From contig JAHBSJ010000007.1 of NCBI GenBank assembly GCA_019639155.1, positions 1 through 64,000 on the forward strand: DNA of 64,000 bases, written 5' to 3'. Under the pieces are notes generated by a model. It searched no databases. It was given only the letters and a program-made list of their open reading frames with translations, and was not told the DNA's origin. Both the position numbers and the translations under genes were made by a program. Positions 26,466 through 27,565 of this stretch are shown piece after piece (the stretch's first letter is position 1; every line of letters starts with the position of its first letter). The DNA is from Acidobacteriota bacterium (lineage in GTDB: Bacteria; Acidobacteriota; Blastocatellia; Pyrinomonadales; Pyrinomonadaceae).

Positions 26466-26987
26466 GTGACCGGACGCGATATTTTGTGGAAACTCGGCTA
26501 CCTCGTCATCACCGGCGGGGTTTTTATGATCGACCAGACGACGAAGGCGTGGGCAGTGAAACGCCTGCGTTTTGACGGCGATATTACGGTCATTCCCGGC
26601 CTGCTGAATTTTGCATACGCCACCAATACGGGCGTGGCGTTCTCAATGCTTGACGGCCACGGCGACGCAGGCCGCTGGGGTCTGTCTGCGGTCGCATTGG
26701 TGGCCGGTGTTTTGGTCCTGTATTTCTTTTGGCGGACGCCGCGAACGGACGACCGCGTGCTCGGAGCTCTCGCTCTGCTGCTTGCGGGCATCGCGGGCAA
26801 CGTTACCGACCGCATTCGCCTCGGCTTTGTCGTCGATTTCATCGACGTTCAATTCGGCTCGTGGCATTATCCGACGTTCAACGTCGCAGACATGGCGATA
26901 GTGATCGGAGCGGGACTGCTGATCGTTGATATGTTTCTCTCTAAGAAGGCAGAAGACAGAAGTCAGAAGACAGAAGTCGAAGGTTAG
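26466..26987 (+). CDS. lspA: Lipoprotein signal peptidase LspA
   Basis: An inner-membrane aspartyl protease that removes signal peptides from diacylglyceryl-prolipoproteins. There are four membrane segments and the two catalytic Asp motifs: GNVTDRIRLGFVVDFID and FNVADMAI. The GTG at 26466 is taken as start, a few bases after the previous stop. The last 14 or so residues (KKAEDRSQKTEVEG) are encoded by the heptad array that begins at 26944, so the repeat supplies the tail and stop codon. Confidence 0.9.
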   Translation: MTGRDILWKLGYLVITGGVFMIDQTTKAWAVKRLRFDGDITVIPGLLNFAYATNTGVAFSMLDGHGDAGRWGLSAVALVAGVLVLYFFWRTPRTDDRVLGALALLLAGIAGNVTDRIRLGFVVDFIDVQFGSWHYPTFNVADMAIVIGAGLLIVDMFLSKKAEDRSQKTEVEG

Positions 26988-27097
26988 AAGACAAAAGGCA
27001 GAAGACAGAAGACAGAAGACAGAAGACAGAAGACAGAAGTCAGGAGACAGAAGTCAGAAGACAGAAGTCGGGGGTTAAAAGACAGAAGACAGAAGTC
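26944..27097 (+). repeat. Array of 22 heptads (AGAAGAC/AGAAGTC), left of the four-helix-bundle gene
   Basis: Twenty-two 7-bp units stay in phase, mostly AGAAGAC and AGAAGTC, with substituted units (GAAGGTT, AAAAGGC, GGGGGTT) that keep the length. The array overlaps the 3-prime end of lspA. A 10-unit array in opposite orientation lies at 27496-27565. Confidence 0.92.
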
Positions 27098-27135
27098 GGC
27101 AGCAAGCATGAAGATGTCAGCGTATAGTTGAGATT

Positions 27136-27492
27136 ATGTTCGCGAAAAGCTTTGAGGATCTGGATGTTTGGAAGAAGGCTCATGCATTTGTGTTGGAGGT
27201 CTATCGATTGACCGAAGAATTCCCTAAGCACGAGCTTTACGGACTTACATCTCAGCTTCGCCGTGCGGCAGTTTCGATCCCGGCAAATATTGCAGAGGGC
27301 TTTGGGAAACCAACAAAGCCGGACAAATTGAAGTTTTACGGAGTGTCGCAAGGTTCTATCGAGGAGTGTCGGTATTATCTGCGTTTATCGCGTGACCTTG
27401 GCTATGGTGATACTTCGGAGTTAAAAGAAATTCTCGAAGAGGTAAGTAAGATGCTTGTAAGTTATTCCCGGCGGATACGATCTGACCAGTGA
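27136..27492 (+). CDS. Four-helix-bundle protein, S23/IVP family
   Basis: A 118-residue protein matching the family first seen in intervening sequences of 23S rRNA genes and related to the Avd protein of retroelements: FEDLDVWKKAHAFVLEVYRLT, FPKHELYGLTSQLRRAAVSIPANIAEGF, GSIEECRYYLRLSRDLGY. Members form oligomeric helical bundles that may bind nucleic acid; the function outside rRNA is not established. Here the gene is tightly boxed by inverted heptad arrays and sits between lspA and lgt, as if inserted into a lipoprotein-maturation operon. Confidence 0.85.
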   Translation: MFAKSFEDLDVWKKAHAFVLEVYRLTEEFPKHELYGLTSQLRRAAVSIPANIAEGFGKPTKPDKLKFYGVSQGSIEECRYYLRLSRDLGYGDTSELKEILEEVSKMLVSYSRRIRSDQ

Positions 27493-27495
27493 TCT

Positions 27496-27565
27496 GTCTT
27501 CCGGCTTCTGACTTCTTGCTTCTGGCTTCTGGTTTCTGGCTTCTGGTTTCTGGCTTCTGACTTCT
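27496..27565 (-). repeat. Array of 10 inverted heptads, right of the four-helix-bundle gene
   Basis: Ten 7-bp units (GTCTTCC, GGCTTCT, GACTTCT, GGTTTCT and relatives) in phase; read on the minus strand they are the AGAAGTC/AGAAGCC type. The array starts four bases after the preceding stop and ends seven bases before the lgt ATG. Confidence 0.9.

Follow-up and report, generated by a model that had tools for sequence, protein, structure and literature searches.

The window, a 64,000-nt stretch of an Acidobacteriota genome (contig JAHBSJ010000007.1, positions 1 to 64,000), contains a gene for an S23/IVP-family protein that lies between lspA and lgt and is bordered on each side by an array of 7-bp repeats, the two arrays running in opposite orientations. 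This arrangement raises the question of whether the gene and the arrays form one unit and, if so, what kind of element settles between two genes of a lipoprotein-maturation operon. The locus is composed as follows:

26466..26987, + strand: lspA (signal peptidase II), with the GTG start at 26466 chosen by us
26944..27097, + strand: left arm, AGAAGAC/AGAAGTC heptads in tandem, rich in purines on the sense strand
27136..27492, + strand: gene for the S23/IVP four-helix-bundle protein (118 aa), the sole ORF of the element
27493..27565, − strand: right arm, heptads in the opposite orientation (AGAAGCC/AGAAACC on the − strand)
27573..28367, + strand: lgt, at whose ATG the cassette exchanged among relatives has its downstream border

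Tandem Repeats Finder reported the left array (26944-27097) with period 7, 21.7 copies and 77% matches; counted by eye, it has 22 units in phase, including a few degenerate ones. The right array (27493-27565) has the same period, 10.4 copies and the opposite orientation. Together with the ORF reading, these results bore out the positions that a sequence-only reading of the window had given for the arrays and the S23 gene, with the right array now beginning at 27493. Because the lspA frame stops at 26987, within the left array, the C-terminal tail and the stop codon of lspA are array-encoded, and the ATG of lgt (27573) lies seven bases past the right array; both points had been made in the same reading and proved correct. 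The arms were scored by comparing the 5′ flank of a gene with the reverse complement of its 3′ flank, with a threshold of 18. The inverted local match of the window S23 arms scored 45 (43 in a 150-bp window), compared with a median of 10 for cross-locus arm pairs. The threshold was reached by two of the 54 window genes, one being the S23 gene itself, that is, by 1 of the 53 others. Folded in silico as RNA, the arms formed a single long stem (z −5.05 vs 20 shuffles). The gene order lspA-S23-lgt was present in 8 of the 29 readable genomes of the genus. Upstream of lspA, two tandem paralogous small secreted-protein-like genes with near-identical motifs occupy 25504-26461, and ileS carries an in-frame GC-rich 30-bp tandem repeat (25126-25207; 2.7 copies, 94% matches) that adds repeated residues toward its C-terminal part.

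In profile searches, the window protein scored 129.7 bits against PF05635 (cut-off 33.8) and 121 bits against TIGR02436 (cut-off 24), exceeding the curated cut-offs of both and thus belonging to the S23/IVP family. The family profile matches PDB entries 2gsc and 2rld, each with five chains. To our knowledge, structures of S23/IVP proteins have been solved and their function is not known. Avd, from diversity-generating retroelements, is a distant homologue of S23 within a common broad family. The window protein scored 25 bits against Avd, below the equivalog cut-off of 80, and a profile search for the reverse transcriptase partner (RVT_1) gave no match in this 94.7%-complete genome. The earlier suggestion of a link to retroelement accessory proteins was therefore not supported, and movement by way of a reverse transcriptase was rejected for this genome.

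The source genome contains 13 PF05635 matches; a search at the remaining 12 S23 genes showed none to be flanked by AGAAG heptads. Instead, most S23 genes of this genome are bordered by inverted short-period arrays, each with its own unit, for example, AGTCTGGGA, AGAGTTGC, GTGATAA, GGATAAA and GCAGTG. The 5′ flank of a gene scored high against the reverse complement of its own 3′ flank and low against other loci or in direct orientation, the direct self match being at background level. The rule emerged once each locus was compared with itself, not from the window heptad; a search with AGAAGAC alone misses it because every element lineage has its own unit. Thus, the proposal that heptad arrays flank S23 genes held for the inverted arrays and failed for a constant heptad sequence.

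The survey was extended to 149 S23 genes, comprising the 13 of the source genome, 63 from relatives of the same class and 73 from a scan of many phyla in which a conserved S23 peptide, and not the flanks, guided the choice of genes; 250 neighbouring genes scored in like manner served as controls. Matching inverted arms were found at 114 of 149 S23 genes (76.5%) vs 9 of 250 neighbours (3.6%; Mann-Whitney p = 1e-43), so that S23 genes co-occur with inverted short-period arrays far above chance, as the sequence-only reading had asked to be checked. About a quarter of the sampled S23 genes had arms below 18. The self pair exceeded 95% of cross-locus pairs at 11/13 loci of the source genome, 50/63 of the class and 54/73 of the phyla, and the period was equal in both arms at 79 of the 84 loci where both were clearly periodic. 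Period 7 was the most frequent, followed by 8, 9, 10 and 6. The arms showed a polarity: at 107 of 114 loci, G outnumbered C in the left arm, and left arms were for the most part rich in purines and had an excess of AGT, CAG and GTC. The armed loci include members of Thermoflexia, Bacteroidota, Nitrospirota, Cloacimonadota, Kiritimatiellaeota and Alphaproteobacteria, a Sedimentisphaerales bin (Planctomycetota), a Levybacteria (CPR) bin and a Microcoleaceae cyanobacterium; the arms of a Methanophagales archaeon were borderline, with a score of 18. One cyanobacterial genome (G062, L334-L349) contained ten S23 matches, several of them broken by stops, which we read as many decaying cassettes, with arm units as varied as GGGAACA, TCAGCTA, ATAATGG and CTACTCCC.

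Where both neighbours of an array-bearing locus could be called, 78 S23 genes lay in sense between co-directional genes (+S+), 8 were antisense (−S−) and 25 stood at converging or diverging junctions (+S− 15, −S+ 10); genes were called by a simple longest-frame method, so some of these contexts are misjudged. In the sense set, the median gaps were 62 nt from the upstream stop to the S23 start and 44 nt from the S23 stop to the next start, meaning that the arms nearly fill the intergenic gaps. The sites were many and different within a genome, and some were common to a genus. In the source genome, they include clpP-clpX, lspA-lgt and dnaJ-hspR, as judged from the neighbouring frames in the sequence. 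The sense orientation could reflect a need for transcription instead of an RNA-level mechanism.

Direct evidence for mobility came from one genome (G056), in which two S23 copies with 96.7% protein identity (L105 and L107) occupy unrelated sites. Their DNA similarity starts in the left array and stops in the right array, covering the arms and the gene only. Such a pair can only be explained by movement to a new site, and it shows the movement between sites with element borders that is characteristic of transposable elements with terminal inverted repeats. Exchange was also evident at the lspA-lgt site itself. Between the sister species G003 and G017, the flanks were 96% (upstream) and 90% (downstream) identical and the S23 genes between them 62%, and the arms were of different types (AGAAGCC vs CAAAATC). 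Between G003 and the more distant G013, the S23 genes were 98.6% identical, with flanks of only 90% and 85%. The exchanged pieces were bordered by the final lspA codons on one side and the lgt ATG on the other. Moreover, the S23 tree of this site placed G009 and G017 as sisters (support 96), in conflict with the lgt tree, where G009 grouped with G019, and G017 with G003/G013. The S23 gene and its two arrays thus move or are exchanged as one unit, and the idea that gene plus arrays had split a lipoprotein operon as a mobile unit gained support from the G056 pair, the lspA-lgt exchange and the tree conflict. Exchange at a single site could proceed by homologous recombination via the conserved flanking genes.

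S23-free lspA-lgt spacers, which had been proposed as a check on mobility, were many in relatives: the gene was missing from the spacer in 21 of the 29 readable genus genomes, the source genome being counted among the 29. No clean nucleotide-level pair of empty and filled sites and no target-site duplication was found in these comparisons; the locus L295 had no clean empty site, its counterpart in G003 holding other sequence. A distinct S23 clade adjoins lgt in another family (G056, L106; lgt side only). In two genomes (L045 in G019 and L047 in G031), a GNAT acetyltransferase-like frame lies between lspA and the S23 cassette. Several S23-free spacers (L051, L056, L062, L066, L067, L069-L072) contain a different repeat, GGCAGAAACACGACCGGTAGGGAGTGTGCC and variants, in some spacers with an inverted partner; it is a REP-like palindrome with GTAG.

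For pairs of loci at different sites, the similarity of arm units grew with S23 identity (Mantel r 0.39, 0/2000 permutations), the mean cosine being 0.02 at S23 identities below 45% and 0.50 at 70-80%. Such a correlation is expected under one-piece inheritance and is therefore no proof that the protein reads the unit. The match of an arm to its own partner was close to its match to sister loci in the dnaJ-hspR group (30.3 vs 29.3) and in a 9-mer group (27.7 vs 26.8); the lspA-lgt values (27.1 vs 18.0) differed more, a gap that reflects different unit types. Within a lineage, same-locus arms are thus no more alike than sister-locus arms, so homogenisation must be slow, and the correlation of arms with protein may be plain co-inheritance rather than recognition. 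Fast within-locus homogenisation of the arms, which we had considered as a candidate, was not supported by the dnaJ-hspR and 9-mer groups.

Decayed copies and arrays without a gene were also found. At the site of a G017 locus (L304), G003 has lost the middle of the S23 frame but retains its two ends together with both arm regions. The lspA-lgt spacer L048 carries an array hairpin without S23; further S23-less array hairpins were found at L224, L225, L245, L259 and L260, and arrays of a single orientation were common. As cautioned in the sequence-only reading, similar arrays without an S23 gene occur in the window as well (e.g., 13638-13740 and 58089-58226). Specifically, solo arrays of AGCAATC (14.7 copies) and CAAAAAC at 13611-13831 sit between minus-strand genes for a cdaA-like diadenylate cyclase and its YbbR-like partner, with no S23 gene present. 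A reverse array (57378-57488) and a forward array (58066-58309) enclose a YggT-like gene (57499-58089); the forward array consists of AGAAGTC heptads followed by CCAAAAC-type repeats, with units that resemble the arms of two S23 genes of the source genome (L002 and L010). These S23-less arrays fit decayed or gene-less derivatives of the cassette.

Sampling of seven S23-rich genomes in 20-kb pieces (420 kb in total) gave 16 arrays of period 7, 8, 10 or 14, and like sampling of five genomes with at most one S23 match (360 kb) gave 2; the samples are small, the arrays are concentrated in few genomes and several resemble chance two-copy repeats. Within the genus, AGAAGNC arrays were found in 8 of 9 genomes with an lspA-type S23 gene vs 2 of 28 others, a difference of which kinship is a possible cause; in one of the eight (G025), the array is the S23 arm itself only. 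An exception is G044, which has many AGAAGGC arrays, yet this unit occurs in none of its listed S23 arms. A search for AGTAGGG in 20 named genomes gave two matches, one genome having S23 arms of exactly AGTAGGG and the other an S23 arm with a single related unit. Together, these counts are only suggestive of solo arrays needing a cognate S23 protein.

Several explanations of these patterns were weighed. That the arrays are ordinary slippage microsatellites, beside which S23 genes stand by accident, would account for the short-period arrays without S23 at 13638-13740 and 58089-58226. This account is very improbable, and as a general explanation it is refuted, since the arms are specific to S23 genes (76.5% vs 3.6%), are inverted and not direct, and match their partner at the same locus but not the arms of other loci. 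It is also unlikely that the S23 gene alone is mobile and lands in inverted arrays that were already present as intergenic palindromes. Such a scenario draws on the S23-less hairpins and the common one-orientation arrays; however, S23-less sites can arise by decay, as in G003, where an internally deleted S23 has kept its arm regions. Furthermore, the recent G056 copies have arms and gene in common, with the similarity ending inside the arrays, and the arms of one lineage stay similar at different sites.

Quite unlikely, in our judgement, is that S23 has become a domesticated operon gene whose arms the host keeps as a regulatory or insulating structure (a terminator, an RNase III site or a translation control). 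Sense placement in the conserved operons clpP-clpX, lspA-lgt and dnaJ-hspR speaks for domestication, as does the sharing of some sites across a genus, but the patchy presence, the between-species swaps of cassettes, the decayed copies and the many sites per genome suit a selfish element better.

The arrangement is most probably a selfish, intercistronic, IVS-like cassette residing in mRNA operons, whose arms would pair as an RNA stem. The proposed cassette of about 0.4-0.65 kb would consist of left array, S23 gene and right array, inserted in sense between operon genes, and would be related to the 23S rRNA IVS while residing in protein-coding operons. In the operon transcript, the arms are predicted to pair into a long stem with the S23 frame in its loop. 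This stem would place the stop codon of the upstream gene close to the start of the next one and, by analogy with the Coxiella IVS, might be a substrate of RNase III; with both properties, an insertion would cost the operon little. The S23 protein, with five chains per solved entry, may act on the arms in the spread or maintenance of the cassette, and S23-less arrays in the same genomes would be decayed or gene-less derivatives. It is possible, though we hold it with less than even confidence, that S23 cassettes are widespread minimal mobile elements of bacteria and at least one archaeon, that each S23 protein recognises a lineage-specific unit, and that solo arrays make up a large part of heptamer repeats.

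Linking S23/IVP proteins with heptamer arrays opens the function of each to direct tests, with the repeat units as candidate substrates of the protein and the arrays as footprints of a mobile cassette whose entry seems to disturb operons little. Should the RNA stem be real, it would also show how two genes of one operon can stay connected despite an insertion between them.

The closest known system is the IVS of Coxiella burnetii, in which an S23 ORF lies between terminal inverted repeats and which is excised by RNase III (PMC4990558); CPR bacteria, too, carry IVS/S23 in their 16S and 23S genes (PMC11270868). The window element resembles the 23S rRNA IVS in its S23-family protein, in an ORF inside complementary ends that form a stem in silico (inverted arms, z −5.05) and in the proposed selfish nature (PMC4990558). 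Unlike the IVS, it is located not in a 23S rRNA gene but between the protein-coding genes lspA and lgt, and a string search of all fetched S23 loci found no conserved 23S motif. S23 cassettes also differ in their many copies and sites per genome, and their arms are 6-10 nt tandem arrays that vary per lineage, unlike the 28-bp inverted repeat of Coxiella (PMC4990558). With REPIN/RAYT (PMC3116915), they have in common small intergenic palindromic elements and many gene-less copies; however, S23 is the only ORF, the element has no Y1 transposase, the gene lies inside the palindrome, and the window arms are short-period AGAAGNC arrays instead of a GTAG palindrome, so the element, judged by its own ORF and arms, does not fit that class. 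Terminal inverted repeats and gene-less copies recall MITEs and other inverted-repeat transposable elements, but the S23 cassette has no transposase and its terminal repeats are not conserved across lineages in one genome.

Heptamer arrays were the most abundant intergenic periodic repeats in the prokaryotic SPADE survey, with 'no clear clue' to their function (PMC6344855). Intergenic heptamers were also described in Xanthomonas (GGGAATC, often as inverted pairs) and Nostoc (PMC4692102), and in Beggiatoaceae (TAACTGA; PMC4679880). These three papers do not mention S23 and leave the function of the repeats open, and no paper linking S23 genes to heptad arms was found in the openly licensed literature. 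The arrays described here share the period of 7 and the intergenic location with those heptamers and occur as arms of S23 cassettes or as solo copies; S23-less arrays may explain part of the abundance of heptamer repeats in prokaryotes. Thus, IVS/S23 in rRNA genes and intergenic heptamers were each known, and what is new is that an IVS-like cassette occurs outside rRNA and has inverted arms of short period.
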